48,072 nt of DNA. It comes from a virus. Below, one piece after another: positions 6,050 to 43,665 of the stretch. The stretch is from the IMG/VR virus record IMGVR_UViG_3300047557_002948, positions 1 through 48,072 of that record; one strand, 5' to 3'. The notes under the pieces were generated by a model that saw only the letters and a program-made list of their open reading frames with translations, was not told where the DNA came from and did no database searches. Positions within the stretch are counted from its first letter, which is position 1. Every line of letters starts with the position of its first letter. Both the position numbers and the translations under genes were made by a program.

Positions 6050-6393
6050 GATTTAAGTTCTGTAGTTTGTATATCGGGGAAAAATTTATTTTGTAAAGCC
6101 ACTTTGCAATAATACCTTTTCATATTTAAATCGTCCACTTCTTTTGCGGAAATCTTTCCATAACGAGCTTCTTCTACAGCTTCAAAAGTTTTAAAATTAG
6201 CGTCAATTAAATTTTTAAATTCTTGAGAACGCACAATTTTAATATGTTGGTCTTCTGGTATTTGATTCAGGATATGTTCATTACATAAAGTTCTTGCGGT
6301 AAGGGTTTTTTCATTATTGAATATTTTGTGTTTAACCGCAAGGATGGCTAAATAATCATAAGCATACCCCTCATCTACTAAAATTGTGATCAT
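6046..6393 (-). CDS. Unknown protein in the sugar block
   Basis: This 115-residue protein is not recognised. It starts MITILVDEGYAYDYLAIL and contains a basic helical middle and a C-terminal KRYYCKVALQNKFF. The open frame could extend to 6432, but ATG at 6393 overlaps the upstream stop as ATGA and is preferred. It is coupled on both sides, to the GT9 upstream and gmd downstream, so a role in the same glycan pathway is inferred only from context. Confidence 0.65.
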   Translation of the reverse strand: MITILVDEGYAYDYLAILAVKHKIFNNEKTLTARTLCNEHILNQIPEDQHIKIVRSQEFKNLIDANFKTFEAVEEARYGKISAKEVDDLNMKRYYCKVALQNKFFPDIQTTELKS

Positions 6394-15846: not shown

Positions 15847-16236
15847 ATGGTTATGCCGCTATACTGCTATCGTAACCCGCAAACTGGTGAAGAGATTGAA
15901 ATCATTCAAAGAATGAATGACATTCATGAATTCGTTGATTCAAATGGACTAAAATGGGACAGAGTGTTTTTTTCGCCCAATGCAAGCATTGATACAAAGA
16001 TGGATGCTTTTAGTCAACAGAAGTTTGTAGAGCGCACAGCGGCCAAGAAAGGTTCTTATGGAGACTTGCTTAATTATAGCGCAGAAATGAGTGCTCAACG
16101 AGCAGAGAAAGCTGGCGGTGTTGACCCTGTTAAAAAGCAATACTTGGAAGACTATTCTAAAAAGAGAAATGGTGCAAAACACGCCTCAGAGCAACCTAAA
16201 ACCATTGAGAGCAAAAACATTAAGGTCGAATTATGA
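15847..16236 (+). CDS. FmdB-like small protein without zinc cysteines
   Basis: This protein is of unknown function, about 129 residues. The start MxMPLYCYRNPQTGEE resembles the opening of FmdB-type zinc ribbons (MPxYEYRCxxCG), but the paired cysteines are gone; a Lys/Gln-rich helical C-terminus follows. The open frame runs from 15790, but that would read through the terminator, so ATG at 15847 (or 15853) is chosen. It is the first gene after the terminator and overlaps the 2OG oxygenase by 4 bases. Confidence 0.7.
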   Translation: MVMPLYCYRNPQTGEEIEIIQRMNDIHEFVDSNGLKWDRVFFSPNASIDTKMDAFSQQKFVERTAAKKGSYGDLLNYSAEMSAQRAEKAGGVDPVKKQYLEDYSKKRNGAKHASEQPKTIESKNIKVEL

Positions 16237-16793
16237 ACATCCCTAAGTTTACTGATAAGGGTTTTTATAAAACAAAAATTCCAGAAAAATCATGGCAAAT
16301 GATTCAAGAGGTTTTGGCCAATCATATTAATGAGCGAGTTCCAGAATATTCTGATACCCTAAAGCCAGACTTAAAAGGGTGGATTAAATCAAGTCAATTT
16401 GAAGTTGCCACAGACCTACTTTGCTTGCAGAGATTTCCAGAACTTAAAAAACAAGTTATACTAGAAATGTATGATGCTCTTTCATCTTGGTCGGGTGCAA
16501 AACTAAACCCCAAAGGAATCATTTACGGCATTCGCTTCTATAAGAATGGGGCCACTTTAGGAATGCATGTGGATAAAAAAGAAACGCATCATATTAGTGT
16601 AAACATGAGCGTGGCATTAGATGGGCAACCTTGGCTATTTGACATTGTGGACCATTCTGGAGTTGAGCATCAAGTTTTAATAGAACCTGGAGAATGTGTT
16701 TATTATGAATCTGCTCTCTGTCTTCATGGACGTAAAACATCGTTTAACGGCAATTATTATGCCAACATGTATTGTCACTTCACACTAGAATAA
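16233..16793 (+). CDS. 2-oxoglutarate/Fe(II) oxygenase
   Basis: This would use O2, Fe(II) and 2-oxoglutarate to hydroxylate a substrate. In its 186 residues the iron ligands are visible: His112-x-Asp114 (GMHVDKK) and His165 in CLHGRKT, with Arg167 or Lys168 for the co-substrate. The core follows a double-stranded beta-helix pattern. The substrate is unknown, perhaps a protein side chain or sugar. It is directly followed by a sulfotransferase whose ATG overlaps the stop (TAATG), so the two may act on the same molecule. Confidence 0.78.
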   Translation: MNIPKFTDKGFYKTKIPEKSWQMIQEVLANHINERVPEYSDTLKPDLKGWIKSSQFEVATDLLCLQRFPELKKQVILEMYDALSSWSGAKLNPKGIIYGIRFYKNGATLGMHVDKKETHHISVNMSVALDGQPWLFDIVDHSGVEHQVLIEPGECVYYESALCLHGRKTSFNGNYYANMYCHFTLE

Positions 16794-17410
16794 TGTTTTT
16801 TTCGGTCTATAAAACCATCTTTGTGCATATTCCTAAAACTGGAGGTTCCAGTTTAGAATTTGCTATTTGTAAAAAACATCTTCCAGAAAGCTCCAACTTA
16901 AACGAAGACTCTTATAAGATATTCACCATCAGAGGCGCAATGTGTTGCATAGAAAAAAACACGCCTCGCGGACACCCTCATAGTTATATTTCAGAGTATC
17001 ACAAATTCTTACAGATTAATTCTTATTTAAAATTTACTGTATTAAGAAATCCATTTGATCAGGTTACTAGCCTATATAACCAGATGAAATCGTCCATGAA
17101 GATTCCTTCATTGGAGCACTTCATCTTATCAGATGAAAAGAACTCATTTCAGAATTTAAATCACTACATTAATCAATACGAATACACTCACCTTAATGGT
17201 GAATTAGCTATTGATAAAGTATTTGTTTTTGATCGTTACCATGAAGCGCAGGATTTTGTAGAAAAACAATTTGACTTAAAAATTGAAAGAGATAAAAAAC
17301 TTTGGGCCACAACATATACTGGAGAGTCTTGGTCCAAAGAAATGAAGGATAAATTTACTTCTGTTCATTATCAATCTATTGCTTTATATCATAGATTTTT
17401 GAAACAGTAA
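16793..17410 (+). CDS. Sulfotransferase (first of three)
   Basis: Sulfotransferases move sulfate from PAPS to a hydroxyl, commonly on a glycan or tyrosine. The 205-residue protein has the 5'-phosphosulfate loop HIPKTGGSS at 12-20 and the 3'-phosphate site VLRNPFDQVTSLY around 83-95, with Arg85 and Ser93. It is shorter than many (about 250-300), so acceptor loops may be reduced. The frame could begin at 16772 but ATG at 16793 overlaps the upstream stop and starts just before the conserved strand. PAPS must come from the host. Confidence 0.85.
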   Translation: MFFSVYKTIFVHIPKTGGSSLEFAICKKHLPESSNLNEDSYKIFTIRGAMCCIEKNTPRGHPHSYISEYHKFLQINSYLKFTVLRNPFDQVTSLYNQMKSSMKIPSLEHFILSDEKNSFQNLNHYINQYEYTHLNGELAIDKVFVFDRYHEAQDFVEKQFDLKIERDKKLWATTYTGESWSKEMKDKFTSVHYQSIALYHRFLKQ

Positions 17411-19774: not shown

Positions 19775-20132
19775 AGAAGGATGCAAGACTTCACACTATG
19801 TCCCTAAAGGATGGGGATATGAAAAATGGTTAGTAAATCGCGATGATTATTGCGGCAAACTTCTTTTTCTTTTTAAAGGAAAAAAGCTTTCTTGGCATTA
19901 CCACGAAAAGAAAACTGAAACCTTCTATGTGAACAAAGGCTCTGTTGTTCTTTATTATGGAACTGGCAACGATATAAATGCAGCTATCATGCAAGAGCTT
20001 TATGAAGGAGATATTTTTCATGTTCCAGTTGGTTTGCGGCATCGCCTATTAGCTTTGGAAAATTCAGAAATTATTGAGTTTTCCACTCACCATGAGGATA
20101 GCGATTCTATTCGCATTGAAAAAGGAGATTAA
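19740..20132 (+). CDS. Cupin, sugar-phosphate isomerase-like
   Basis: Single-domain cupin of 130 residues. Cupin motif 1 is complete: His53-x-His55-x4-Glu60 and Gly67. Motif 2 follows with Gly90, Pro96, Gly98 and His101, so metal binding is likely. It is closest in style to the C-terminal domain of mannose-6-phosphate isomerase/GDP-mannose pyrophosphorylase (ManC), which would fit the gmd gene in this phage, but WbuC-like or other roles are possible. It starts inside the end of the GT4/GT9 gene in another frame and separates the two GT9 halves. Confidence 0.82.
   Translation: MEKTELNCNFIKEGCKTSHYVPKGWGYEKWLVNRDDYCGKLLFLFKGKKLSWHYHEKKTETFYVNKGSVVLYYGTGNDINAAIMQELYEGDIFHVPVGLRHRLLALENSEIIEFSTHHEDSDSIRIEKGD
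20122..20128 (+). promoter_or_regulatory. Strong ribosome binding site for the GT9 C-half
   Basis: AAGGAGA lies 5 bases before the ATG at 20134, inside the cupin end. It is one of the best sites in the window and shows that the C-terminal GT9 half is made as a separate protein. Confidence 0.8.
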
Positions 20133-22473: not shown

Positions 22474-22676
22474 GAAAAACAATCGCAAAACAACTTAGAG
22501 CAATCACTAACGCAGAAGATAACGCTATCAACAAAAGAGTTTATAGGCGTTTAAAGAAGCAATACAACAAGGTTCCAAAACATGCACGAAAAGACTTCAT
22601 CGAAGCAACAAAGCAATTCTACGAATTGGTCCAAAAACAATCTAGGGAGCCTGTGGCTGAAACAGGGCAAGAATAG
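22470..22676 (+). CDS. Small basic protein, unknown
   Basis: This 68-residue protein is not recognised. It is rich in Lys and Arg (KRVYRRLKKQYNKVPKHARKDF) and mostly helical, so it may bind nucleic acid. It starts with an ATGA overlap on the acetyltransferase gene, and the next gene starts inside it in another frame. Confidence 0.55.
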   Translation: MRKTIAKQLRAITNAEDNAINKRVYRRLKKQYNKVPKHARKDFIEATKQFYELVQKQSREPVAETGQE

Positions 22677-22824
22677 CAAATATCTATCTGGTAAGATAGT
22701 GCTGCAAGACTCAAACGGAGAAACAATCACTCAAAATATTATTGTTTTCAAAAACAAGTATAAAGAAAAAGACAATCATCCAGATTATGTAATCTTTAAA
22801 CCTTTTGAGGCAAATCAAAACTGA
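22582..22824 (+). CDS. Small conserved-type phage protein, unknown
   Basis: This 80-residue protein overlaps the previous gene by 95 bases in a different frame. Its core (SLWLKQGKNSKYLSGKIV, then IIVFKNKYKEKDNHPDY) resembles a short phage family with a YLSG strand and a final FKNK-x-K-x2-PDY. The N-terminal 20 residues are low-complexity, as expected if this part is constrained by the other frame. The only Met is the first residue. Its stop abuts the convergent sulfotransferase stop, with no clear hairpin between. Confidence 0.6.
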   Translation: MHEKTSSKQQSNSTNWSKNNLGSLWLKQGKNSKYLSGKIVLQDSNGETITQNIIVFKNKYKEKDNHPDYVIFKPFEANQN

Positions 22825-23415
22825 TTACATTTTATAATTAAATCTATCAAAGTCTTCTGCGTAAACTGATTGAACTATTTTTTTTAGTTCTTTCGTCCAT
22901 TTAATATTTTTTTTCTCAATTGGTTTTCTTTCGAGTCCAAATTCTAGCGGACCATATTTAGAATTTAAATAGTCAAAACATTCATTTATTTTCTCGTAAT
23001 GAAAGATTTTGATTCTGTCTTCATAACCTTTAACAAAGGAACCCTGAGTCTCTAAGTGACCATCAAAAATGTATTTTCTCTCTACTTGGTCCAAGTTTGG
23101 AATTAGTTTTATAAATTCTTTAAATGTTGCATGTTTGAGCTTGAATAGCCATTCGTTATTTTCAATATAGTTATATTCAGAAACCAATCTATCATAAGGG
23201 TTTCGAACAATTGTCAATAGTTCAAAATCGGCTAAGTCAATTTCATGTGATAGTTCTTCGCATGTCAAGTGCTGCGGACAAACGCAATAGTGTTTGAACT
23301 TATATTCATTATAGAAATTATTAATAGTTTTCATTCCCAAAGCTGTTTCAATTGTGGTTCCAGCAGTTTTAGGAATATGTATAAAAGCTAATTTTTTATC
23401 TTGACAAATAGGCAT
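22825..23415 (-). CDS. Sulfotransferase (second of three), downstream of the fibre
   Basis: The 196-residue protein has the PAPS loop IPKTAGTT at 14-21 and the 3'-phosphate site TIVRNPYDRLVSEY at 68-81 (Arg71, Ser79), the pattern of the Sulfotransfer_2 group that includes carbohydrate sulfotransferases of animals. It is short, so the acceptor part is reduced. It is the last gene of the tail operon (fibre, GT8, this) and its start overlaps the GT8 gene by 20 bases. This suggests that it acts on the fibre or on a glycan added to it. The target is inferred only from context. Confidence 0.87.
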   Translation of the reverse strand: MPICQDKKLAFIHIPKTAGTTIETALGMKTINNFYNEYKFKHYCVCPQHLTCEELSHEIDLADFELLTIVRNPYDRLVSEYNYIENNEWLFKLKHATFKEFIKLIPNLDQVERKYIFDGHLETQGSFVKGYEDRIKIFHYEKINECFDYLNSKYGPLEFGLERKPIEKKNIKWTKELKKIVQSVYAEDFDRFNYKM

Positions 23416-24583
23416 GAGAATATTCTTTGATGAAGTTTGATTTTGCGATTGGCTCCAAACAAGGACCGATGAAATGTATCAAAACATCCGATTCTTTTAT
23501 TTCGGGATTATACCTAGATTTATTTTGATCTATGGCGGAATGAATTTTTACCTTGTTATTAAAAGTAATATATTCGGTTAAATTATAGTTGCAAAAATAG
23601 TAATTCATGAATGATTGCTCAAAAAAGTATTCGCTTGGCCATGATTTCATCAGCCAATTGACATTATAAAAATGCTCTTTCATTAATTCGCAGTTCATAA
23701 ATAAAAACTGACCAGCATTAAATGGCATTTGTTGATTTTCACATATTCTCTTATAGAATGCATCATCTTTCACTATACCGTGATATTGACCCAAGTGAGA
23801 ATCTAGTTTAATAATTTTTTCACTATATGCTGTATATAGCTTACCATTTTCTATTTCGAGATCAAATACTTCATTGATATTTTTAATAGCAATCACATCG
23901 CTATCTATAAAAAGAATTTTTGCGAATTCATTAACTTTATCAAAATCATAAATCTTCGTTTTATTTTTTGAGATTTCAACGCCGTCAGTTGAATCATCTA
24001 CAGTGTGAAAATGATAGTTGATGCCCCTTAATCCGTCTAAATTTTTAATTTTAGATTGCCAAGATTCGGGGCATATAAATAAAAACTCAAAACTCTTTTC
24101 GCTTGTTAAACTCACAATCGAATTGATAGAGGTTTCTAATAAGCTTAGATAATTTAAATCTCCGCCAACAGCATAGTATATTAAATTTTTAGTTCCAACT
24201 GTTTCTTTTGAGCAGTTTTGAATTTTTGAGAAGCGAGCGTCTAGTATTTTTAAAACAGTTTTTTTGCCAAAATCACTATCATCATAAAAAGAGTTTTCAT
24301 TCTTTCTTAAATAGAACTGAATGTTCTTAGGTTTTTGGCCATTAATCCATTCATATTTATCGCTTCTTCTAAATTTTTCAATTGACCCATCTTTGTATTC
24401 TAAGATCAAAACCAAAAATGCACATTTGTCAAATTCTTTCTTAGGCATTTGAAAATGATCTTGCCTAATTTTACTAGGGTCTAAAAATAAATCTTCATAA
24501 TCATGATCGCTATACCATACTCTTAAAGAGGCTTTATTAATTTCTTTTAAGTTTAAATTCGCAAAAGGAATCAATTTTATCAT
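23396..24583 (-). CDS. Glycosyltransferase family 8-like
   Basis: GT8 enzymes are GT-A retaining transferases (galactose, glucose, xylose). After an extra N-terminal domain of about 130 residues, the GT8 core begins with LIYYAVGGDLNYL at 134-146. The metal site is DSD at 227-229 in AKILFIDSDVIAI, the NAGQFLF motif is at 289-295, and the final His370 in IHFIGP matches the usual C-terminal H-x-x-G. It starts 1 base after the fibre gene and overlaps the sulfotransferase, so all three are made together. The fibre's Ser/Thr/Pro hinge is a natural candidate acceptor, though this is inference. Confidence 0.86.
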   Translation of the reverse strand: MIKLIPFANLNLKEINKASLRVWYSDHDYEDLFLDPSKIRQDHFQMPKKEFDKCAFLVLILEYKDGSIEKFRRSDKYEWINGQKPKNIQFYLRKNENSFYDDSDFGKKTVLKILDARFSKIQNCSKETVGTKNLIYYAVGGDLNYLSLLETSINSIVSLTSEKSFEFLFICPESWQSKIKNLDGLRGINYHFHTVDDSTDGVEISKNKTKIYDFDKVNEFAKILFIDSDVIAIKNINEVFDLEIENGKLYTAYSEKIIKLDSHLGQYHGIVKDDAFYKRICENQQMPFNAGQFLFMNCELMKEHFYNVNWLMKSWPSEYFFEQSFMNYYFCNYNLTEYITFNNKVKIHSAIDQNKSRYNPEIKESDVLIHFIGPCLEPIAKSNFIKEYSHAYLSR

Positions 24584-24584
24584 T

Positions 24585-27500
24585 TTATGGATAAGCGGCT
24601 GGTTTAATTAGTTCAATAGCATCTATATTAGCTGCCCATCTAGTATTTTGACCGCTAACTCCGCTGCCAAAAATACAAAAAACATCACTATAACTTCCTG
24701 TATTAAAACTGCCCGTTACAGAAAAGACCGCTTTACCAGCGTTTTCTAAATCAGTTCCTATTGATTCAATATGATGGATTCTTTGGTATCCTGAATTAGA
24801 TGCAAGAGTGCTAATAACTGCTTTTCTCATATATTGAGAAAGATTAGCATCTTCATCTACACCAAGAACTTTAACTGTAAGCATCATGACTTTATCGGTT
24901 TGGTTTTCTAAAATATTAAAATATAAACCCGCACCATCCATAGATAAAACTGAAACTCCAGAATTATAAGTGGTAGCGTTTAAAACAAACTGAATATTTT
25001 GACAATCTCCATCAGCACTAAATTTATCTGAACTGTAAGCCCTTGAACCATAACGATCAGCTTTAGAGTAGTATCCAGCAGCAATTGAATATGCCGCATT
25101 TGGAGTTGTGCTACAACCTATACCTGCCAAAATAGCCGAACACAAACCTCCAGCACTATTATTCTCTCCACCCAAACAAGATGCTGAATATCCACTAGAA
25201 GTATTATAGTAGCCCCCTAAAACAGAAGCGTAACTATTACTTGCTAAATTATTTTGACCACCGCCAATTGTGGCATAAGAACCAGAAGTGATATTACCTA
25301 CCCCGCCCAAGATAGATTGCCAACTACCATCATCTGTTTTATTGTTCCATCCACCAGCAATTGTATTATGAGAACCAGTATTTAATACGTTACCTTGACC
25401 GCCACCAATCAAACCATAGCGAGAATTTCCAGAGTTTCCAGAACCACCAGCAATTGTTGGATAGTAATTTTGAACATAACTACCAAAAGAATTATTTTTA
25501 CCAAAAAACCCAGTTTCAGTAATAAGCTTTCCGATAAAAGTTTTTTCTCCACTGATGGTTTGGTTTCCAGTTGCATAAACTACATCACCAATAGAAGCAT
25601 TATCGGTAAATGAACCAGAAATTGTTTGCCCATTTCTAGGATATAAGAAAAGAGTTTTTGTTGTTGTGCCAGAAAATTGTAAGCCAGTAATTGATTGATT
25701 ATATCCAGTAATTGCGCGACCACTAATATATAGGCCATCAGATTTTTTTAAATATGTTTGATCAATGTTTCCAGTAATTTCCTCATAGGGCAAAATAGTT
25801 TTCCATTGTCCAGACTTGACTAAATAAAGATTTTGTCCAGAGCTTCCTGTTTGGTAAATAAGTGCTCCATCTGAATTTGGAACATCAGCAGGTGAATTGT
25901 AGCCGCTAAAGAAATTACCCGTTCTCCGATCAAAGGATAGGGTTGGCGGAATACCATTGGTGTAAAATAATTGCTCTGGCGGAGAGAACAAATACCCGCT
26001 CGTTTCTTCTCCATAAACATAGCCAGTTCCAAAGTCGTCTTGGCCCACAAATTTATAGTAAACAAACTGATTGTTTGGAACTTCATTGGCAAAAATTGAA
26101 AAGCTTTGCGAAGAAGCGTTTTCCAAGAAATTGACTGTTTTCAATAATGTGAAACCAGATAATGAATATGGCGTTCCAGTGTTAGAACCAGTATAAACAT
26201 CAATCCCTTTCGTAATATAATTTTCAACAGCATCAGCATCGAAATTAACTGTAAAATTAATTTGGCCGCTCAAAGGTGAACTGGTTAATTGTGTGATACC
26301 AGTTATTTCTTGAATAACAATTGTTGAACCGCTTGCTGGAGGAAGATTAAAAACTAATTGATCATTATTTCCATCAATAGAATAATCTCCAGAAAGTTCT
26401 TCAAAGCCATCAATAAATGCTCTATAGTTTGTTGATAAAAATCCCGTGTTTCCTGTTAATTCAACAATGTTCAAGAAAAATCCACTTGGTAAACTAAAGA
26501 AATTAATTTCTGGTGTTGGATTTGAAAATTTTATTTCATATTCACTTGTGGAAACTAAATTGCCACCAGAGTAAACTTGATAAAAGTCTCCACTATTCAC
26601 ATAACCAGTAATTGCAAAACCAGAAACATTTCCAGTTGGGAAATACTCCCAATTTAAAACTTGAGAAAGGCCAGAAGTCAATCCAGTAATGAATGGATTG
26701 GTTCTGCCAGTGACATCAAAACCTGTTAAGACCCCATCGCCAACATAATTCCATGTTGTTAAAACACTATTGACAATTCCAGAAGTTTGAGTTGAGAAAT
26801 AATCTTCAACACCAACAAAATCAATATTAGCTGGTAAATGATAAACTGTTGCTAATACAGAGTTTTCAGAGCCTTGATTTCTTATGTTAAATAGCAATGA
26901 ATAATATCTTTCTCCAGAAGGCAATCCAAAAAGTTCAGCATTTTTTGTTTGAGGAAAATTAAAAGATAAACTTGTTTGATTTGTTGCAAAACCCGAAGCA
27001 ATTAAATGTGATGGAGCAGTGGCAGGCGTAGCTCCAGTGGAAAGCAGAGAAGCTTTGTATGAGAAATTGTAATTGGCAAAGCCTTGATTTTGCGCTAACT
27101 GTAAATCGCTTGTGATTTCATTGTCATAAATATCCTTGTATTGAAAATTAAAAGACGAGTCTTTGAATCTTGAATAGTAGAAACTCTCTCCCGTGCCTTT
27201 GGACGTTGCTGATGGATAAAAACCAACTGGAAACGGTGGCGCTGGAGGCGCTGGCGGAATAATTGGCGGCGGTGTAGGCGAAGGCGGTGTAGGCGAAGGC
27301 GGTGTAGGCGAAGGCGGTGGCGGTGTAGGAGGCGGTGTAGGCGGCGGTGTAGGCGGAGACGGCGGTGAAGGCGTTGGTGATGGTGGTGAAGGTGGCGGTG
27401 AAGGCGGTGGAGTTGGGCAATCATAAGGATATGATATGCCGTTAGAATAAAATAAAGAATTAAATTCTCCATAAAAACGCGAAGATAAAGCAGAGTCAAA

Positions 27501-27596
27501 ATAAGCAATATCAGTTGAAACCCATGTGGGGTTTTCAGTATAAAGACCTACTGTATTACCACTACAATCTTGACCAGTATGAAAATAAGAAGGCAT
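24585..27596 (-). CDS. Tail fibre with extensin-like proline hinge and YadA-like roll
   Basis: This 1003-residue protein follows the J-like hub and is probably the receptor-binding fibre. Residues 1-60 probably anchor to the tail. Residues 61-124 are almost only Pro, Ser and Thr in PPSP, SPTPP and TPPP units, like plant and algal extensins. Residues about 125-720 are beta-rich and have many Gly, Ser, Thr and Asn. Residues about 726-865 carry repeats of the GG-x-x-N-x-x-SG-x-Y-A-x-x-x-GG type, as in the left-handed beta-roll head of YadA trimeric adhesins. A C-terminal cap follows. It probably forms a trimer. Confidence 0.85.
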   Translation of the reverse strand: MPSYFHTGQDCSGNTVGLYTENPTWVSTDIAYFDSALSSRFYGEFNSLFYSNGISYPYDCPTPPPSPPPSPPSPTPSPPSPPTPPPTPPPTPPPPSPTPPSPTPPSPTPPPIIPPAPPAPPFPVGFYPSATSKGTGESFYYSRFKDSSFNFQYKDIYDNEITSDLQLAQNQGFANYNFSYKASLLSTGATPATAPSHLIASGFATNQTSLSFNFPQTKNAELFGLPSGERYYSLLFNIRNQGSENSVLATVYHLPANIDFVGVEDYFSTQTSGIVNSVLTTWNYVGDGVLTGFDVTGRTNPFITGLTSGLSQVLNWEYFPTGNVSGFAITGYVNSGDFYQVYSGGNLVSTSEYEIKFSNPTPEINFFSLPSGFFLNIVELTGNTGFLSTNYRAFIDGFEELSGDYSIDGNNDQLVFNLPPASGSTIVIQEITGITQLTSSPLSGQINFTVNFDADAVENYITKGIDVYTGSNTGTPYSLSGFTLLKTVNFLENASSQSFSIFANEVPNNQFVYYKFVGQDDFGTGYVYGEETSGYLFSPPEQLFYTNGIPPTLSFDRRTGNFFSGYNSPADVPNSDGALIYQTGSSGQNLYLVKSGQWKTILPYEEITGNIDQTYLKKSDGLYISGRAITGYNQSITGLQFSGTTTKTLFLYPRNGQTISGSFTDNASIGDVVYATGNQTISGEKTFIGKLITETGFFGKNNSFGSYVQNYYPTIAGGSGNSGNSRYGLIGGGQGNVLNTGSHNTIAGGWNNKTDDGSWQSILGGVGNITSGSYATIGGGQNNLASNSYASVLGGYYNTSSGYSASCLGGENNSAGGLCSAILAGIGCSTTPNAAYSIAAGYYSKADRYGSRAYSSDKFSADGDCQNIQFVLNATTYNSGVSVLSMDGAGLYFNILENQTDKVMMLTVKVLGVDEDANLSQYMRKAVISTLASNSGYQRIHHIESIGTDLENAGKAVFSVTGSFNTGSYSDVFCIFGSGVSGQNTRWAANIDAIELIKPAAYP
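27225..27416 (-). repeat. Proline-rich coding repeat in the fibre gene
   Basis: This segment encodes the Ser/Thr/Pro hinge. It is very rich in GGCGGTGTAGGCGAA-type units; three exact tandem copies of this 15-base unit lie at 27268-27312, with degenerate copies on both sides. Tandem structure of this kind can expand or contract by recombination, changing hinge length. Alternative frames stay open here only because of the repeat composition. Confidence 0.85.
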
Positions 27597-27600
27597 AGAG

Positions 27601-30600
27601 TTATTTATTAATTACGAATCCTTGAATGATTCCGTTTGTTCTTACTGGAGCCACATAAGATACAACAGATAGCGATCTGGATGCGGTTGCTGATATTGGG
27701 TTTGGATATGAACCAGTGTTTCTGGCAGTTACTTTGAGAGTAAAGGTTCCAACTTCTGTTTGGTCTTCAAAAATAGCAGAGTTGCCAGTTACAGTTTGTT
27801 TGATGCTTTTAAATTTTGGAGTAATTAATTCAACATTATAGGCGTTTGCACCATTAACAGGCAACCAACTTCCAGACAAATCTGCTGTATCTGTTTGCAT
27901 GTCCCAATTGCCAGTTCTCAATGTTAAAATTCTTGGGAATCCCAAGTCATACACATATTTATTTTGCAACAATTCTCCCTGACCCTCGCTGACCGCTGTA
28001 TTTCTAGCTGGTGGGAAAGCAGAGAAGAAGTCTTGCATTAAGCCAGTTTCGCCTTGCTCAATCTCTGCAAATTTACCAGTGTCAAACTTTGAAGCAATGA
28101 CCTCATATTCGTTGAGGTTTAGCTCTTTGATTGATTGAATTTTATAGATTTGTTGTTTAGTGTTGGCGATTGTAATAGAGCAAGGTGTTCCAGCGCGAAC
28201 TTGCTGCAACAATGGATAGCCAGAACATCCAGTATCAATAAAGAACTTTGAACCATAATCCAATGCTGGAGAAGAGTCCATGACTTGAGTTCCAGTTGTT
28301 TGAAGCGTTACTCTGATTGGAACATCTGTTTGATAGAGTTCAGAAACGCTTAACTTGGTTGGAGACTTTGCCAAATTATAAAAGTCATTAGACTGATATT
28401 TACCAGTTGGAATCAGAACAGAAATTTCTCCCGTTAGTCCAGAAGAACTAAAATCAGACGATTTAAGAGAAACATTAGTATATATAGAATTATTAATTGG
28501 ATCAACATCTAAAACTCGGCCCACATGATTTTTAAGGGTTTTAACATTATCATTGATTGAGATCAAATCTCCTGGTCGGCACAAGAGAGTTTCCAAGTTG
28601 CCAACAAAGGCCACGTTTTCGTCTTCATTAATGGTTGAGTAGATGATGTGTTCACCAAGGCGTTTGGCGTGAGCGCGGCTAGTAATGCCAAAAGTTTGTG
28701 CCGAGGTTCTCAAAATACCGCGAGTTTTAATGTCATCAGGGTCTTCTACATATTCAATTTTCTGCTTGAACAAGTCGTCGCGATCCAAATAAGTCACTTC
28801 AATAACATTATATTGCAAATCTCGACGCTCATTTGAGTAGTTGAACATGCCATCTTTCACATTCGAATTATTAAAGAAGGCCATGATTGGCTTGAGCCTA
28901 TCGTTTGTGAAGTTGATTTCTGAGTTTGTATAGAACATGTTGCCTCTAAAGCAAGCCACTAGAGACTTCAATGATTCAAACACATTGGTTTTATCAGCAA
29001 TCACACCGTTAAAGGCATATCTTGGCTCTAGTCCGCCATCAGCAGCAGGAACGCCAACAAATACGCCATTAGTATCAACACCATCACAATAGCGGCCAAT
29101 CTTATAAAGCTCCCAATAGTTAACCTCAGATGGCGAAATAAAGTTGCCTAATCCATATCTACGATTGATTAGAATATCAAAAAGAACCCAAACAGGATTA
29201 TCGGTCCATGCTAGTTTAAATGTTCCATCCCAATTGCCTTTATAAATTATTTTTTCATCGCTAGAATTGCTTAGGCTATTAAATGAAGCCAAATTTTTTC
29301 CAAGAACATATCTTTTATCTTGGCCATTTGCTTTGAGTGGAAAGTAATTACTTGGAACGAAAACCTTCTTAAATCTCGCATCATAACTGCGAGCAGGAAT
29401 TGAATTAAATGTTCGTGCATCCAATTTTAAACCACAAATGGTTGAGTATGGATAAGAGAATGGAATGTTAATAATTTCAGTAATTTTTTTCAAATAAATT
29501 TCGCGACGAATAAGTGAAGAATAAGATTCCGCAGTTGTTCTATAAACTCTCACAAATCTATTCTTATTAACCACATAAGGAGGAAGTGAAATTGGCTTTG
29601 CAATATTTTCACTTCCAAGAATAAAACGGCTATATTCTTGAATAGCGGCAGCATTTTCTTCTCGACCAACATCAATTGATGCGGCAGAACCATTTACTAA
29701 ACCTCTAGCTTGATAAAGTCTTGACGTAAATATCTCTTCTTCGCCATTTAAAGTTTGATAACCTGTTTCAATTTTAAATTCAATAATGGAAGGTATGTTT
29801 GTTCCAGCTTCAACACTTTGATTAACACCATCAGCTTTTAATAAAGTCATATTACCTTGTGCGGTGTCTGTTAAAGAAGTAATCTGCAAAGATGCAAAAA
29901 CCTGATCAACATTTGGGTTTAAAACAATATGAGTAATTCTTGAGGCTGGTTCAGCCAAGTATTTCACATAGTTCCTATTCCAATCACTATAATTTTCAAC
30001 CGCTCCATTAGCCAAACGAGCATCATTTCCGCCTTCATTATAATAAGAAACCTCCAATAATACCCTACAAAGGATTGTAAATAACCAAGGCCATCCATTA
30101 GTGGGTTTTACGTTTCCAGGACTTAAAATTAAATTAAGACTAGGCGCAAAGTTTACTGTTGCATCTTTAATAAAAACCGTATCTGACAATAAAATGTCAA
30201 ATTGAGTGGGCGTAACTCCAGAAAAATTAACAGTTTTTAAAAAACATTTGGTAGTTTTATTAAAACTAATAGTTAAAGTGCCAACTTGTAAGCCGTTAGG
30301 GTAAAGTTGACTTGCGTTTGGGTAAAAAAAATTAAATACCACAGAAATTAAAGACCCAACCAGTTGAATTTTATTAAAATTAAACGTCATATTTCCAGTG
30401 GAAAAATTTGCACGGCCTATAATTGCATTTACTGCACTTTTTAAAGATTCATCATTAGCGACATTGAAAAGGCCCGAATGCAAATTTTTATACTCATTCA
30501 GTTCTTGATCAGAGATAATTTTTGTTGTGTAAGCTCCATAAGTAAAATCAGATATGAGTCCACTTCTTCCAGCAGCAGAATTTGCATTATATCTTGAGTC

Positions 30601-31737
30601 AACTACAGTAGAATCTGAATTTAAAAGTGTTAAAACTGGTTTACTTATATCAAATGGACCCCTTAGTTTAGAGTTAAATTCTGTATCTAAATAAGTTTTA
30701 TTAAACAATGATAGTGGTTTTTGAAGATCAACACCATCTCTGAATTCGAATGTAGCATTTGCATAATTAAATTTTGCCGAAGTGTTTAATAGTTTAACTG
30801 ATTTTATGTAATTAATAATCGCTGAAACACCATTCTCAAGAACAAAACCGTTTCTTTGATAAAAGAAAACATAAAAATCACCTTTGACTAAGGTGCTGCC
30901 ACTAATTGTTTGAAAAAAACAAGTGTTTAGTTTCTTTTTAGGAGAAAGGATTTTTTTGTTTTGAAGTTCTGTTGGCTCCAAATCATAGTAAATTTGATTG
31001 TATATATCTTCTGATAAAACAATTAAATCATCAATTGAATGAGCATAATTACTAGCTGTAACACTTGCATTTAAAGAAATTTTTAGCGCCAAAAATGGAT
31101 AATCGCTTGAAAAATACTCTGGAAAATCTGGCAATAGATAAGCCAAAACTTCTGCTTGAGAAGTGAAATTAAATTGCGCCCTTAGCAATCTCAATTGTTT
31201 AAATATAGAATTGCTGTAACCCATTGTTGACATACTGGCGTATGCCGTCTCAATATTTTGAATTGATTGTCGGATTGAACTTGCTATCTGGTCTTTTTTG
31301 GACAAAACACTAAAAGAGACACTGTTATTTGAGTTGGAGCCTATCAAATCATTTAAATTAGAAACAGAAGTTTCTATAAACTGATTGTTTGAATAAAACT
31401 TATTTTGAAAAGCTGAACCAATAAAACCCAAATCATAACTTTGAATTACGGTTGAAGATTCGCTATCAACAGTTTGTCGCACAACAACATCTTGTAAGTA
31501 AATACCTTCAAATAAGCGAATATTATCAATATATTCCCCGTTTGGACTAACTAATCCATCAATTTCTCCATCAGAAATGAGATCAATATTTTCAACATAA
31601 TCGTATGAAGATATAGCTTGCAAATCGCCCAATCTTGGCGGCTTGAAAGTGGGCGGGGGAGGTGGTGGTGGAGCACCACCACCACCACCGCCGCCGCCAA
31701 CAATGCCTTTGATATATTTTTTAGAAAAATGACTCAT
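27601..31737 (-). CDS. Central tail hub / tip attachment protein, lambda J-like
   Basis: This 1378-residue protein is the distal tail hub that contacts the host. Just after the start (about residues 14-32) there is a run of eight Gly then Ala and seven Pro. The next part (SSYDYVENIDLISDGEIDGLV) is the J-family opening. Around residues 830-1050 a region with RYGLGNFISPSEV and CRPGDLISIND resembles the hub domains of lambda J, and a fibronectin-like domain lies near the C-terminus (LSGSWLPVNGANAYNVELI). It is longer than lambda J (1132), mostly in an N-terminal insertion. Its place after the I-like gene and before the fibre fits. Confidence 0.9.
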   Translation of the reverse strand: MSHFSKKYIKGIVGGGGGGGGAPPPPPPPTFKPPRLGDLQAISSYDYVENIDLISDGEIDGLVSPNGEYIDNIRLFEGIYLQDVVVRQTVDSESSTVIQSYDLGFIGSAFQNKFYSNNQFIETSVSNLNDLIGSNSNNSVSFSVLSKKDQIASSIRQSIQNIETAYASMSTMGYSNSIFKQLRLLRAQFNFTSQAEVLAYLLPDFPEYFSSDYPFLALKISLNASVTASNYAHSIDDLIVLSEDIYNQIYYDLEPTELQNKKILSPKKKLNTCFFQTISGSTLVKGDFYVFFYQRNGFVLENGVSAIINYIKSVKLLNTSAKFNYANATFEFRDGVDLQKPLSLFNKTYLDTEFNSKLRGPFDISKPVLTLLNSDSTVVDSRYNANSAAGRSGLISDFTYGAYTTKIISDQELNEYKNLHSGLFNVANDESLKSAVNAIIGRANFSTGNMTFNFNKIQLVGSLISVVFNFFYPNASQLYPNGLQVGTLTISFNKTTKCFLKTVNFSGVTPTQFDILLSDTVFIKDATVNFAPSLNLILSPGNVKPTNGWPWLFTILCRVLLEVSYYNEGGNDARLANGAVENYSDWNRNYVKYLAEPASRITHIVLNPNVDQVFASLQITSLTDTAQGNMTLLKADGVNQSVEAGTNIPSIIEFKIETGYQTLNGEEEIFTSRLYQARGLVNGSAASIDVGREENAAAIQEYSRFILGSENIAKPISLPPYVVNKNRFVRVYRTTAESYSSLIRREIYLKKITEIINIPFSYPYSTICGLKLDARTFNSIPARSYDARFKKVFVPSNYFPLKANGQDKRYVLGKNLASFNSLSNSSDEKIIYKGNWDGTFKLAWTDNPVWVLFDILINRRYGLGNFISPSEVNYWELYKIGRYCDGVDTNGVFVGVPAADGGLEPRYAFNGVIADKTNVFESLKSLVACFRGNMFYTNSEINFTNDRLKPIMAFFNNSNVKDGMFNYSNERRDLQYNVIEVTYLDRDDLFKQKIEYVEDPDDIKTRGILRTSAQTFGITSRAHAKRLGEHIIYSTINEDENVAFVGNLETLLCRPGDLISINDNVKTLKNHVGRVLDVDPINNSIYTNVSLKSSDFSSSGLTGEISVLIPTGKYQSNDFYNLAKSPTKLSVSELYQTDVPIRVTLQTTGTQVMDSSPALDYGSKFFIDTGCSGYPLLQQVRAGTPCSITIANTKQQIYKIQSIKELNLNEYEVIASKFDTGKFAEIEQGETGLMQDFFSAFPPARNTAVSEGQGELLQNKYVYDLGFPRILTLRTGNWDMQTDTADLSGSWLPVNGANAYNVELITPKFKSIKQTVTGNSAIFEDQTEVGTFTLKVTARNTGSYPNPISATASRSLSVVSYVAPVRTNGIIQGFVINK

Positions 31738-31738
31738 T

Positions 31739-32356
31739 TTAATATTGTGGGTTGCTCAAAACCGAATCCGCACTATCAATAATAGCAACTTCGTTGGCAG
31801 ATTTTTTAGTTGTTGAATTTAAGAATTCGTCTGTTAAAGTGAGTGTGAGTGGGAAAGATTTGATGGAACTTTGAACAACAAAAGAGCCAACCTTTAATCG
31901 CCCATAAACAAGAGGAACTGGATTGCCTTGCTCGGTAATATTCTCTCGATTGGAGAAAGATAAAGATTTAGAACTAGCAGATGAAACTCCTTCTGCTCCA
32001 GGGATTTGAGGATACTGTTGTTTACCAGCTTGAACATAGGAATATACGGCAGAAGCGATAGAGATAACAAGGGAGATTGCAACAATCCACATCGTAGGGG
32101 TGCTGCCAATAATAGCTGGAACAAAATCAATTTTTTTTATTCTATCTCTTTTAAAAAAAGAATCTCCTTGTACCCACTGATTGTCTGCGACAATCGTATA
32201 AACGATATTTTTCTTTAGCAGGTCTTTAAGGTCTTTTGAGAAATTTTCATAGTTAGCTTCTAAAGCGCGGACTATATCTCTAGGCTCCTTGATTGCAAAT
32301 CTATGCAATCGCCCATATTTTTTACCTAAAATACCGTGTAGATGAATTTCTGTCAT
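31739..32356 (-). CDS. Tail assembly protein, lambda I-like
   Basis: Lambda I helps build the tail tip before J. The 205-residue protein starts with a ubiquitin-like beta-grasp region (EIHLHGILGKKYGRLHRFAIKEPRDIVRALEANY). A hydrophobic stretch at about 88-106 (PTMWIVAISLVISIASAVYSYV) is typical of gpI homologues, and a later GNPVPLVYGRLKVGSFV is also typical. It is one base before the J-like gene and overlaps the K-like gene by 4 bases. Confidence 0.88.
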   Translation of the reverse strand: MTEIHLHGILGKKYGRLHRFAIKEPRDIVRALEANYENFSKDLKDLLKKNIVYTIVADNQWVQGDSFFKRDRIKKIDFVPAIIGSTPTMWIVAISLVISIASAVYSYVQAGKQQYPQIPGAEGVSSASSKSLSFSNRENITEQGNPVPLVYGRLKVGSFVVQSSIKSFPLTLTLTDEFLNSTTKKSANEVAIIDSADSVLSNPQY

Positions 32357-34271: not shown

Positions 34272-34776
34272 TCAGTTTGACTACAATGGCCAATGTTCTG
34301 ATTCAGGATACTCTGCCGAAACTCTTTTTTCAGAAATGGCTGAAAAACGAGGCTGGAAAGTCTCAAAAGCAGATCGCAAACAACAACTTTCTCATGTTGA
34401 TGTTTATTTAGACCACAAAAAACACGGCACTGTTTCTTTTGATGTTAAAGCTCAAAAGAAAGTGAAACGCACAGACTCAAATACAAACGATAAATATTTG
34501 TGGGTAGAGTTCGCGAATGTGGCTGGCAAAGAGGGCTGGCTTCGCGGCAGTGCTGATTTGATTGCTTTTGAACAAGAGAAGAATTTCTTAATTGTAAGGA
34601 GACAAGCTCTGTTAGATTTTTGCGAAAAGAATGTTGATTTTTCTGACAAGGTGGACAAGTCAAGCGAGGCAGTTTATCGCATTTATCAGCGCAAAGGCCG
34701 AAAAGACGAGATTTCACTGATTCCCATCAAAGATATTAGGGAGCATTTATCTTATTCTCTTTGGAAAAAGCCATGA
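34258..34776 (+). CDS. PD-(D/E)xK-like nuclease or related fold
   Basis: This 172-residue protein has a restriction-endonuclease-like core: an N-terminal helix with Glu27 (TLFSEMAEKRGWKV), then HVDVYLDHKKHGTVSFDVKAQKK at about 46-68, with Asp48, Asp62 and Lys64 as likely D...D-x-K residues. The last third is charged. It could cut host DNA or act in repair or recombination. It overlaps its upstream neighbour by 14 bases and the third sulfotransferase gene by 4. Confidence 0.6.
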   Translation: MKYRNQFDYNGQCSDSGYSAETLFSEMAEKRGWKVSKADRKQQLSHVDVYLDHKKHGTVSFDVKAQKKVKRTDSNTNDKYLWVEFANVAGKEGWLRGSADLIAFEQEKNFLIVRRQALLDFCEKNVDFSDKVDKSSEAVYRIYQRKGRKDEISLIPIKDIREHLSYSLWKKP

Positions 34777-35456
34777 TAGAGTTTTCTCCATGTTCTCAAA
34801 AATGGATTTGGAATGTTATTGCTATTCGCAATCCTAGATGCGGATCAACGTCTCTTTGGGAACATTGTGGTGATTTTAACTTAATAAAAAAATACGAAAA
34901 AATATTTGATGATGTTTTGATAAAAAATAAAACTTATAATGGCATTTTTCGCTGCAATCACGCTAAATCTCAAGAAGTCTTCAATATATTAGGGTCGAGA
35001 GTTAGGGAATATTTGTCATTTGTTTCTATTAGAAATCCTTGGGACCGTATTGTTTCAATGTATCATGGAATACATAAAATAGACCTCATAACTTTGGAAA
35101 AGGTTAAAAAGATTTATAATATACAAGATCAGCAGCTAGATAATTTCGAAAATTTTTGCCTTCTATTAAAAAAATTTTTTGATGATGGTAATAAACATTT
35201 CATGTTTATCCAGAATCAAGTAGAGTGGATTGAGGGAGATTTTAAACCCAATTACATTCTTATATTTGAAAATTTACAAGAGGATTTCAAAGAAATGATT
35301 GATTCTCACAATATTAAACATATATCAAATCAACTTTTGCATACCAACGAATCAGCACATAGAAAAAACTACCATTATTATTACAATAATAAAACAAAAA
35401 AGATAGTTGAAAAAATCTTTGAAAAAGACATTGACACATTCAAATATACCTATTAA
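34773..35456 (+). CDS. Sulfotransferase (third of three)
   Basis: The 227-residue protein has a variant PAPS loop AIRNPRCGSTSLW at 17-29 and a clear 3'-phosphate site FVSIRNPWDRIVSMYHG around 87-103. The PRCGSTS form is found in some glycan sulfotransferases. The rest is helical and very rich in Lys and Asn. The TTG at 34761 is an alternative start, but ATG at 34773 overlaps the upstream stop as ATGA and is preferred. It is AT-rich compared with its neighbours. Confidence 0.8.
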   Translation: MIEFSPCSQKWIWNVIAIRNPRCGSTSLWEHCGDFNLIKKYEKIFDDVLIKNKTYNGIFRCNHAKSQEVFNILGSRVREYLSFVSIRNPWDRIVSMYHGIHKIDLITLEKVKKIYNIQDQQLDNFENFCLLLKKFFDDGNKHFMFIQNQVEWIEGDFKPNYILIFENLQEDFKEMIDSHNIKHISNQLLHTNESAHRKNYHYYYNNKTKKIVEKIFEKDIDTFKYTY

Positions 35457-42179: not shown

Positions 42180-42854
42180 GTCATAGCGCTGAAAAAGCTC
42201 AAAATACTCTTCTGATAAGTTTTCAAACTTACTAAGGATTTTTTGCGGGAAATTCCTATAGAAGCATTTGTTTTTAATCTCTATAGTTTCAGAAATCCAC
42301 TTGCGCGATTGCGCCATATACAAGTAGGAAAACATGTAAGCATTAGCAGACTGAGCATAAGTTTCGGGCGAAATAATGTGCGACCATCTCCTTTTTATTT
42401 TTTTGATGGACCGTCTCTCACAGTCAGACTCAAGAGCAATCACATGTTTGGCTGTTTCTGTGGGATTTTTAATGTTTTTAATCTTGAGCAACCAATCAAA
42501 AAAGCTATTAAAATTGCGCGAAACTTTCTGATTGTGCCATATAGACTGACGGTTTAGCCACTGATCAAAGTGGGAATCTTCGTGAACAAGAGTGGCAATG
42601 ACCCATTTTAAAGGTTTATTTACTGCAATAGCTAGTTCCTTGGGAGAATCAGAGAAGAAACCGCCACAACTTCCGCCTCCAGAATAAACAACAGAACCGC
42701 TGGAAACTCTAAACTTGACTCCGTGTTTTGCGCACTTTTCGTTGATTTCTTGAAAATAGTCCTGCACATCTTTGGGAAAAGAGTTTAAGATGGCGCGAGC
42801 TTTCCTGTCTATTTTCACAGAAATATTTACACCTTGGAGCCGTACTTCTTGCAT
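42153..42854 (-). CDS. Zinc metallopeptidase-like protein
   Basis: This 233-residue protein has the HExxH zinc site LVHEDSHFDQW at about 90-99 (His91, Glu92, His95), preceded by a Gly-rich stretch (SGGGSCGGFFSD). Further on are Glu-rich helices with ALESDCERRSIKK that may give the third ligand. It has no signal peptide or membrane helix in this start. It might process virion proteins, act on host proteins, or aid lysis beside the holin-like gene. ATG at 42854 shares CATG with the prolyl hydroxylase start; the frame goes on upstream to 42977. Confidence 0.7.
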   Translation of the reverse strand: MQEVRLQGVNISVKIDRKARAILNSFPKDVQDYFQEINEKCAKHGVKFRVSSGSVVYSGGGSCGGFFSDSPKELAIAVNKPLKWVIATLVHEDSHFDQWLNRQSIWHNQKVSRNFNSFFDWLLKIKNIKNPTETAKHVIALESDCERRSIKKIKRRWSHIISPETYAQSANAYMFSYLYMAQSRKWISETIEIKNKCFYRNFPQKILSKFENLSEEYFELFQRYDKKCKSGSK

Positions 42855-43665
42855 GAAAAAGACCAGTTTTGACGATTCTTGGAAATTTTGGATTTGGGAC
42901 AACGTAAAAAGGGGTTCATCTAAGAGAGAATTGGCACAGATTTTGCTTGACAAAGGCTTTGATGAAAGCCTAATCATTCAAGAATTTTGTATGCCAGACA
43001 TTTTAAAAAAGGTTGAAGGCATTTCTCCACCTGTTAAAATTGAAGATTTGACTGATAAATTTGGCGCAGAAAAACTCTCTGATAAATTAAACATCTTTAA
43101 AATCAAGAACGCTTTGACACAGGACCAGTGCTCTCGCGCCATTGAAATCATCAAGAATCGCTGTCAAAAGTCTTCTGTGATTGACTATGATAATGGCGGG
43201 AATAAGATTTCCGACTTTCGCACAAGCTCTACTGCTCATTTGTTTCGCAATTCTGACCCCACAATTGCTGAGATTGAAGATGCAATTTTAAACATTGTTG
43301 GCATTCCAGAGCAATACAGCGAGCAAGTTCAAGGCCAATACTACAAAGTTGGCGAACAGTTCAAACCTCATTTTGATTCTTTCTTTCCCCTTAGCGACGA
43401 TCAAAAAAAACAGTTAGAGCGACACGGCAACCGCACTTGGACAGCAATGGTTTACTTGAATGACACTCCCAAAGGAGGTCACACTAGATTCACAGAGATA
43501 GACTTGGAAACAAAGCCCGAAACTGGCACAATGATTCTTTGGCAAAATACTAGAGAAGGTTCAAATATTCCCGAATCAAAGCATTGGGGAATGCCAGTTG
43601 AAGAAGGAGAAAAATTCATTCTGACAAAATGGTTTCGCGAAAAACCTTACCAAAATCTTTCTTGA
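42853..43665 (+). CDS. Prolyl 4-hydroxylase (2OG-Fe(II) oxygenase)
   Basis: This enzyme family hydroxylates proline, as in collagen and plant extensins, using O2, Fe(II) and 2-oxoglutarate. In the 270-residue protein the ligands are all visible: His173-x-Asp175 (KPHFDSF), His244 (ESKHWGMPV) and Lys254 (EGEKFILTKW). The region GNRTWTAMVYLNDTPKGGHTRFTE is the P4H core, with the G-G-x-T-x-F step. An N-terminal 60-residue helical part is separate. The obvious phage substrate is the Pro-rich fibre hinge, but that is inference. ATG at 42853 overlaps the metallopeptidase start. Confidence 0.9.
   Translation: MKKTSFDDSWKFWIWDNVKRGSSKRELAQILLDKGFDESLIIQEFCMPDILKKVEGISPPVKIEDLTDKFGAEKLSDKLNIFKIKNALTQDQCSRAIEIIKNRCQKSSVIDYDNGGNKISDFRTSSTAHLFRNSDPTIAEIEDAILNIVGIPEQYSEQVQGQYYKVGEQFKPHFDSFFPLSDDQKKQLERHGNRTWTAMVYLNDTPKGGHTRFTEIDLETKPETGTMILWQNTREGSNIPESKHWGMPVEEGEKFILTKWFREKPYQNLS

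Follow-up and report, generated by a model that had tools for sequence, protein, structure and literature searches.

The window analysed here is the whole of a 48,072-nucleotide (nt) stretch of viral DNA, positions 1–48,072 of IMG/VR virus record IMGVR_UViG_3300047557_002948. Its minus strand encodes, in order, a gpJ-like central tail tip protein, a tail fibre, a glycosyltransferase of family GT8 and a sulfotransferase, ending against a convergent 80-amino-acid (aa) gene. The favoured interpretation, held with roughly even confidence, is a modular fibre on a gpJ-type tip, in which a hinge and core general to the phage group carry an exchanged block of fibre tip, GT8 and sulfotransferase. The GT8 starts 1 base past the fibre stop and the sulfotransferase overlaps the GT8 end, as an earlier annotation made from the letters alone (the sequence-only reading) had described; the overlap is 20 nt.

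Exchange of the fibre tip

IMG/VR yielded 29 related records including the window, and family searches were run on 26, setting aside L052, L054 and L056 (4.7–6.9 kb). G000 and G001 are one virus, and G002 and G003 are near-identical. Seven syntenic relatives have gpJ, a fibre with a proline/serine/threonine-rich (P/S/T) or Thr-rich tract and a convergent 81-aa gene in the same order. The fibre cores of five of these (L004–L008) are 69–75% identical to that of the window, and L046 and L049 are more distant. The fibre end overlaps the convergent gene by 19 nt in 7/7, with no GT8, sulfotransferase or other gene between the two. All nine complete fibres that are not of the window type (G004–G008, G013, G016, G023, G024) end in YLYAATG.N.WGR plus a few residues. 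In the window and G002/G003 this ordinary ending is replaced from about residue 617 by a 387-residue tip, the GT8 and the sulfotransferase.

The replaced block is also apparent in a nucleotide profile of 300-base bins. About 22.8–25.8 kb of the window has no aligned bin in L004–L008 or L046, and the flanking bins align at 64–75% on the fibre side and 79–86% on the other. Tip, GT8 or sulfotransferase queried singly retrieved the same three contigs each time, in a search that detects close relatives only. GT8 was found in 4/9 and 0/17 related records (4/26), which represent two distinct viruses, both with the window tip. Fibre tip, GT8 and sulfotransferase therefore look like one exchanged block. 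The seven syntenic relatives keep a tract without either enzyme, so both enzymes go with the tip and not the hinge, and a dependence of GT8 and sulfotransferase on the hinge was rejected. The sequence-only reading had placed fibre, GT8 and sulfotransferase in one unit around the hinge; the unit stands and is tied to the distal tip.

Downstream of the fibre, L069 and L070 have other gene kinds. In the distant relative L069, more genes come after the fibre, including those for fascin-like and DUF285 repeat proteins (L069:9787–14777). The fibre-end site may be a tip hotspot.

Features of the window are listed in Table 1. The gpJ-type assignment is based on the phrog_31 match and the adjoining upstream phrog_32 tail assembly gene. 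In L004, a short homologue, the fibre C-terminus matches a PHROG tail protein (E 5.5e-5). The first 35 residues of the gpJ-like protein contain Gly and Pro runs (GGGGGGGGAPPPPPPP), with Gly/Pro positions conserved in six aligned sequences. This N-terminus is another possible substrate of the prolyl 4-hydroxylase (P4H) described below, or perhaps a ribosome-stalling site. A hypervariable stretch of gpJ at about 29700–31500 has 58–77% nt identity to G002, versus 83–85% in flanking bins.

Table 1 Coordinates, strands and supporting evidence for features of the window
Feature	Coordinates	Strand	Evidence
Second 2-oxoglutarate (2OG)-oxygenase-like gene	16233..16793	+	Homologous to domain fused to P4H in another phage
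Second sulfotransferase, overlapping the 16233 gene	16772..17410	+	PF03567 E 2.1e-4 (at cut-off); phrog_3347 E 2.7e-6
Convergent 80-aa gene, right edge of swapped block	22582..22824	+	Open reading frame (ORF); comparison with relatives
Sulfotransferase, 196 aa	22825..23415	-	PF03567, phrog_3347; PAPS motifs HIPKTAGTT, IVRNPYDR
GT8 glycosyltransferase, 395 aa	23396..24583	-	PF01501; DxD (LFIDSD) and HFIG motifs
Tail fibre, 1003 aa	24585..27596	-	ORF directly downstream of gpJ-like gene; IMG/VR relatives
Fibre residues 617–1003, lineage-specific tip, putative beta-roll (UspA1-head-like) repeats	24588..25748	-	phmmer; absent from relatives
Fibre residues 125–616, conserved core	25749..27224	-	69–75% identity to L004–L008
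Fibre residues 61–124, Pro/Ser/Thr hinge	27225..27416	-	Composition
Fibre residues 1–60, small N-terminal module	27417..27596	-	Present in window, G001, G002, G003, G009, G010
gpJ-like central tail tip protein	27601..31737	-	phrog_31 E 2e-102
Tail assembly gene just upstream of gpJ-like gene	31739-32356		phrog_32, E 4.7e-28
Third sulfotransferase, ~3 kb upstream of gpJ	34761..35456	+	PF03567 E 5.4e-11
Prolyl 4-hydroxylase family protein, core gene of group	42853..43665	+	PF13640, phmmer

The proline-rich hinge

The hinge has 42 Pro, 8 Ser and 8 Thr among its 64 residues, in agreement with the proline-rich segment of about that length in the sequence-only reading. Among all other stop-to-stop frames of at least 64 aa, the next-best 64-residue window has 10 Pro, in the gpJ-like gene. 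In 1000 shuffles of the fibre the maximum was 15 Pro per 64-residue window. Hinge-coding DNA is a short-period tandem array with GC 0.66 vs 0.37. SPPPP is the signature of extensins, and no SPPPP was found within residues 61–124. "Extensin-like", as the hinge had been called, applies to its composition only.

A low-complexity tract is present at every fibre start inspected in the group, and its motif varies (SPPP/TPPP, SPTP, TP, PPTS, PPTPTP). Tracts in G013 and G014 are nearly pure Thr (Pro 3/35 and 2/30 residues). The tract of G016 is Thr-rich and has TTTVEP repeats as well as a second run of poly-Thr; G017 has TP plus poly-Thr. Cys-rich modules are interspersed in the tracts of some relatives. 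At the Pro-hinge site, poly-Thr or Thr-rich tracts alternate with Cys-rich modules in L046:10813–13710, L047:11599–12159, L049:5597–8095 and L050:14157–15183. Five contigs (L040, L041, L042, L044, L055) terminate within the hinge tract; the repeats apparently interrupt assembly there and hide the genes downstream. The hinge looks like a spacer that changes by repeat slippage under pressure to remain P/S/T-rich, a pressure that an extended shape and O-glycosylation could both exert.

GT8, sulfotransferases and other glycan genes

The GT8 assignment is based on a PF01501 match above the curated cut-off (E 1.4e-12, 48.2 bits vs 24.3) and the DxD metal motif. The match covers residues 139–374, leaving about 138 N-terminal aa outside. 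A single-sequence structure model of GT8 was uninformative (predicted local distance difference test score, pLDDT, 35.6), and no solved relative was found at E 0.1. No GT8 relative was found in genome_contigs, in a scan detecting close relatives only, and neither fibre nor GT8 had a match in the phages collection at E 1e-3.

Sulfotransferases that use 3′-phosphoadenosine-5′-phosphosulfate (PAPS) have 5′ and 3′ PAPS-binding motifs. The block sulfotransferase has both HIPKTAGTT and IVRNPYDR, exceeds the PF03567 cut-off (E 1.3e-11, 45.6 bits vs 22) and matches the PHROG family "Galactose-3-O-sulfotransferase" (phrog_3347, E 9.9e-19). The window holds three PF03567 matches, at 16772 (only at the cut-off), 22825 and 34761. 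Most related records have PF03567 matches, and in G013 one also lies about 3.1 kb upstream of gpJ. Open frames at these matches in relatives fall into two length classes, 221–229 and 231–238 aa. The third window sulfotransferase has 61–62% nt identity to G002 versus 89% and 96% in adjoining bins, and resembles an exchanged allele. Related sulfotransferases occur in 46 phage records. Two were inspected; both genes lie within glycosyltransferase or nucleotide-sugar clusters, and one record has a tail fibre gene 1.75 kb downstream.

The "several other glycosyltransferases" of the sequence-only reading are weaker than stated. Candidates at 6390, 7090 and 17855 are below Pfam cut-offs, and those at 14494, 20074 and 35700 matched no family. 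A GDP-mannose dehydratase at 5012 is certain. In L008, the 2OG and sulfotransferase pair at 16233–17410 is replaced by capsule-synthesis-like and GT9-like candidates, both below cut-off. The bin at 19801–20100, over a cupin gene (19740–20132), is unaligned to L005, L006, L008 and L046. Regions 16233–17410 and 19740–20132 are probably further variable glycan sites.

Prolyl 4-hydroxylase and second 2OG-like gene

The gene at 42853 encodes a clear P4H-family protein, in line with the sequence-only reading. It matches PF13640 (E 1.2e-14, 55.5 bits vs cut-off 27). A phmmer query begun two codons ahead of the Met at 42853 matched the structurally solved P4Hs of human (P4HA2), Bacillus anthracis and Chlamydomonas over 187–194 residues (E 1e-20 to 1e-22). 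HxD, the distal His, the 2OG Lys and an RTS motif are conserved against the peptide P4Hs. Two positions that we take to be peptide-binding in the Chlamydomonas enzyme differ in the alignment (Tyr to Phe, His to Arg). P4H is present in 6/9 and 5/17 related records, and these are the 11/11 that extend 11.1 kb or more upstream of gpJ, the distance at which the gene lies in the window. The remaining 15/26 are too short to reach the site, including the Thr-rich G013, G014 and G016. P4H is called a core gene of the group because all 11 spanning records have it, a set that contains no contrast case. Relatives had been proposed as a check on co-occurrence; P4H is in every spanning record, and tracts persist in records that lack GT8 and sulfotransferase.

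The 16233 gene had been read as another 2OG oxygenase. Its Pfam match is below cut-off (E 0.061); HxD and the distal His are present, and its product shares 31% identity (E 5e-31) with the second half of the P4H-2OG fusion encoded in the hinge locus L195. That half matches a gene annotated as 2OG-Fe(II) oxygenase in Synechococcus phage S-SCSM1. PHROG families matching 16233–16793 are labelled ferrochelatase, a label that looks wrong. L154:4435–5010 was considered as an oxygenase of the 16233 type and rejected for lack of similarity.

(S/T-P)n fibres in other uncultivated phages

At least 120 IMG/VR stretches code for (S/T-P)8, and a rare hinge was therefore rejected. These stretches formed the hinge set, and 92 stretches retrieved with an arbitrary 15-base pattern served as controls. 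In the 80 listed hinge loci the tract is always in an open frame, which the pattern near-guarantees; some frames are <100 aa and may not be genes. Whole-record sets were 25 hinge records of at least 120 and 25 of the 92 controls, chosen by length from 80 listed each. Hinge records were also picked for a long open frame, with at least one fitting record (L148) omitted. The controls are random positions rather than fibres without a hinge, and part of any local enrichment may reflect the neighbourhood of fibres in general.

A P4H profile built from seeds outside the hinge set matched 9 of at least 120 hinge loci (1.09 Mb) and 1/92 controls (0.69 Mb; one-sided Fisher p 0.026). In L195:1–4208, a modular (TP)n fibre is followed after 39 nt by the fused P4H-2OG gene and then by genes for a radical SAM protein and a glycosyltransferase of family PF11397 (E 1.7e-34). 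The P4H half is 38% identical to the window P4H over 190 residues. L189:2–4099 has the same four genes in a different order, with the fused gene truncated where the stretch ends. In L147:838–5801 a fibre is accompanied by genes for a 79-aa protein, a PF13640 protein, a radical SAM protein and a PF11397 protein. The radical SAM genes are of the radical SAM/SPASM kind, and these three clusters may hold more interest than the window. PF11397 is presumably the family of Skp1 Gnt1, a hydroxyproline N-acetylglucosamine (GlcNAc) transferase.

PF11397-like frames were found by phmmer in 8 of at least 120 hinge loci and 0/92 controls (p 0.0095). Three of the eight loci were queries; without these the count is 5 of at least 117 vs 0/92. 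With the Pfam model, PF11397 was found in 5/25 whole hinge records and 0/25 controls (p 0.025), where L104 and L126 were known positives beforehand and three were new. Three of the five genes lie ≤1.2 kb from the hinge frame in records of 69–229 kb, and for the five records taken together the probability of such proximity by chance is 0.019. These PF11397 tests were post hoc, set after L195 was seen. The L195 fibre and the L147 PF11397 gene had no match in the phages collection at E 1e-5. The sole match of the L189 PF11397 gene there was Xanthomonas phage XacN1. PF11397 was found in 0/26 records of the window's group, which are fragments. No P/S/T tract was found by the set criterion in 12.6 kb each of the P4H-bearing isolates Microcystis phage Mel-JY01 and Erwinia phage Y3, or in the first 50 kb of the P4H-bearing Salmonella phage Sen-NF.

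Interpretation and alternatives

In the favoured interpretation, the Pro/Ser/Thr spacer would be an extended flexible arm, and spacer and core would be general in this phage group. The hinge prolines would be the best candidate substrate of the core P4H. An ordinary short tip would have been exchanged, presumably in that direction, for an adhesin-like beta-roll tip that serves as receptor binder. GT8 and sulfotransferase would travel with this tip as a block, as the last genes of the tail operon and coupled to that of the fibre. They would build a sulfated hexose in the cytosol, probably late in infection. The acceptor would be a glycan tied to the new tip, either a host envelope glycan bound by the tip (receptor masking) or a fibre-tip glycan. 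Because tracts persist without the two enzymes, a host glycan or the tip is a likelier acceptor than the hinge. A link between P4H and the hinge is plausible, with independent, modest support from the comparisons above.

Several observations weigh against this interpretation. The block is known from two distinct viruses, and tip and enzymes could co-occur through one event with no functional tie. The window lineage also has a hinge motif of its own (SPPP/TPPP, where others have TP, SPTP or PPTS) and a different N-terminal module, and GT8 and sulfotransferase may be linked to this particular hinge. The beta-roll label rests on repeats, because the phmmer search that matched the tip to the UspA1 head (E 1.6e-7, with composition and repeat bias) also matched WD-40 repeats on another part (E 9.6e-7). 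The sugar-cluster setting of the two related sulfotransferases accords with an acceptor among host or free glycans. Whole hinge records show no enrichment of PF13640 (2/25 vs 1/25 controls), and within hinge loci 2OG and PF11397 genes are no closer to the hinge gene than other genes are (permutation p 0.18 and 0.43).

The alternatives overlap, and their probabilities need not sum to one. The pair may instead modify the receptor in a seroconversion-like manner, adding sulfated galactose or glucose to host lipopolysaccharide or capsule so that progeny avoid the lysing cell and the virion stays unmodified. We regard this as possible, tentatively. It would account for exchange of the block together with the tip, the galactose-3-O-sulfotransferase label and the sugar clusters around two related phage sulfotransferases. 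P22-like phages have a tailspike beside glycosyltransferase genes. A gtrABC seroconversion cassette would have the GtrA flippase and GtrB polyprenol transferase near the attachment site. As the last genes of the tail operon, the two enzyme genes are presumably expressed late, which would be late for receptor masking. Alternatively, the enzymes could glycosylate and sulfate the beta-roll tip itself, by analogy with the accessory enzymes of serine-rich adhesins. This appears unlikely. In its favour, the enzymes share operon and block with the tip, and phage-borne glycosyltransferases modify virions in mycobacteriophage Che8 (cited in PMC11256854); against it, the tip has no known acceptor site.

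The genes may also be accidental neighbours: a plain Pro-rich spacer needing no modification, cargo at a tip hotspot, and a P4H that acts elsewhere, on a phage or host protein. This is somewhat unlikely. In its favour, (S/T-P)8 tracts are common in viral contigs, and P4H, GT8 and sulfotransferase are missing from most of the 25 hinge records examined. The tract changes much as a microsatellite does, to the point of almost pure Thr in G013 and G014, and L069 and L070 have other genes after the fibre. Strict retention of P4H, a P/S/T or Thr-rich tract at every fibre start inspected and the P4H-type genes that adjoin hinge fibres in certain other phages argue the other way.

The sequence-only reading had proposed that these enzymes act jointly on the hinge. 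P4H and the second 2OG enzyme would hydroxylate it, GT8 would glycosylate hydroxyproline or Ser/Thr, and the sulfotransferase would cap the glycan, giving a sulfated hydroxyproline-rich glycoprotein. As a whole this is doubtful. The half that joins P4H to the hinge gains some support from the 11/11 records and the L195-type clusters, and the GT8 and sulfotransferase half does not. All of the enzymes are encoded in the window, the second 2OG family is fused to P4H beside the (TP)n fibre of L195, and the lineage with GT8 and sulfotransferase has its own PPP-rich hinge motif. PMC6939170 describes cytosolic hydroxyproline glycosylation of Toxoplasma Skp1 with GT60 first and GT8 last. Against the proposal, the seven syntenic relatives keep tracts with neither enzyme at the site, neither GT8 nor sulfotransferase shows enrichment among records with a hinge (GT8, PF01501, 1/25 vs 2/25 controls; sulfotransferase, PF03567, 0/25 vs 2/25, both below cut-off), and the 26 related records have no PF11397 to start a hydroxyproline glycan.

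More generally, some tailed phages might make their own hydroxyproline glycoproteins, with (S/T-P)n spacers hydroxylated by phage P4H/2OG enzymes, glycosylated by PF11397/GT60 or GT8 and, here, sulfated. We consider this rather unlikely. If true, such phages would encode a cytosolic equivalent of the Skp1 and plant-wall pathways, giving a stiff, charged, protease-resistant hinge. The window locus and the L195, L189 and L147 clusters supply concrete candidate P4H substrates. Glycan editing linked to the tip becomes testable, since GT8 and sulfotransferase genes can belong to a fibre-tip block.

Comparison with known systems

In literature searches whose coverage leaves out most subscription journals, no paper was found that joins phage tail fibre glycosylation with a glycosyltransferase and sulfotransferase, or a proline-rich phage tail fibre linker with a glycosyltransferase, and no bacteriophage paper on PF11397. 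Among the matches listed, by title and start of abstract, none concerned hydroxylation of a phage fibre. Collagen-like phage tail proteins are the subject of PMC3368898. Phage P4Hs and sulfotransferases are regarded as auxiliary genes whose purpose is not known: viral P4H is of cryptic use according to PMC9301287, and phage sulfotransferase function is unclear according to PMC10580990.

Sulfotransferases of cyanophages and pelagiphages (galactose-3-O-sulfotransferases, phrog_3347) belong to the same family at about 28–31% identity and adjoin glycosyltransferases in the two records inspected. Unlike that of the window, they sit in sugar-gene clusters, uncoupled from a fibre gene in those records. 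Plant extensins and arabinogalactan proteins combine Ser/Thr/Pro repeats with P4H. To our knowledge, their known hydroxyproline transferases belong to other GT families. The phage case differs in having no SPPPP and no secretion route. Paramecium bursaria chlorella virus 1 (PBCV-1) is an algal virus, and the window P4H matches the P4Hs of collagen, bacteria and Chlamydomonas better (1e-20 to 1e-22) than it does 5c5t (3e-7), which we take to be the PBCV-1 enzyme. Like the window, PBCV-1 encodes a P4H, and hydroxyproline in its viral proteins has been proposed (Eriksson 1999, cited in PMC9301287). Mycobacteriophage Che8 and relatives have glycans on structural proteins, with phage-coded glycosyltransferases implicated (cited in PMC11256854). 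In the passage on them the glycans are on the capsid rather than the fibre, and no sulfotransferase or P4H is mentioned.

The Skp1 pathway of Dictyostelium and Toxoplasma (PhyA, GT60 Gnt1, GT8 Gat1) likewise combines a cytosolic P4H with glycosyltransferases, GT8 acting last (PMC6939170). Its Gnt1 is in CAZy family GT60, together with a polypeptide GlcNAc-transferase of Trypanosoma cruzi (PMC6939170). Sulfation is absent from the Skp1 glycan as described in that part of the source, and the window's group differs in lacking the GT60 (PF11397) starter in its 26 records. In L195, L189 and L147, 2OG/P4H and PF11397 genes lie together near a (TP)n fibre, a gene content that resembles the Skp1 pathway.

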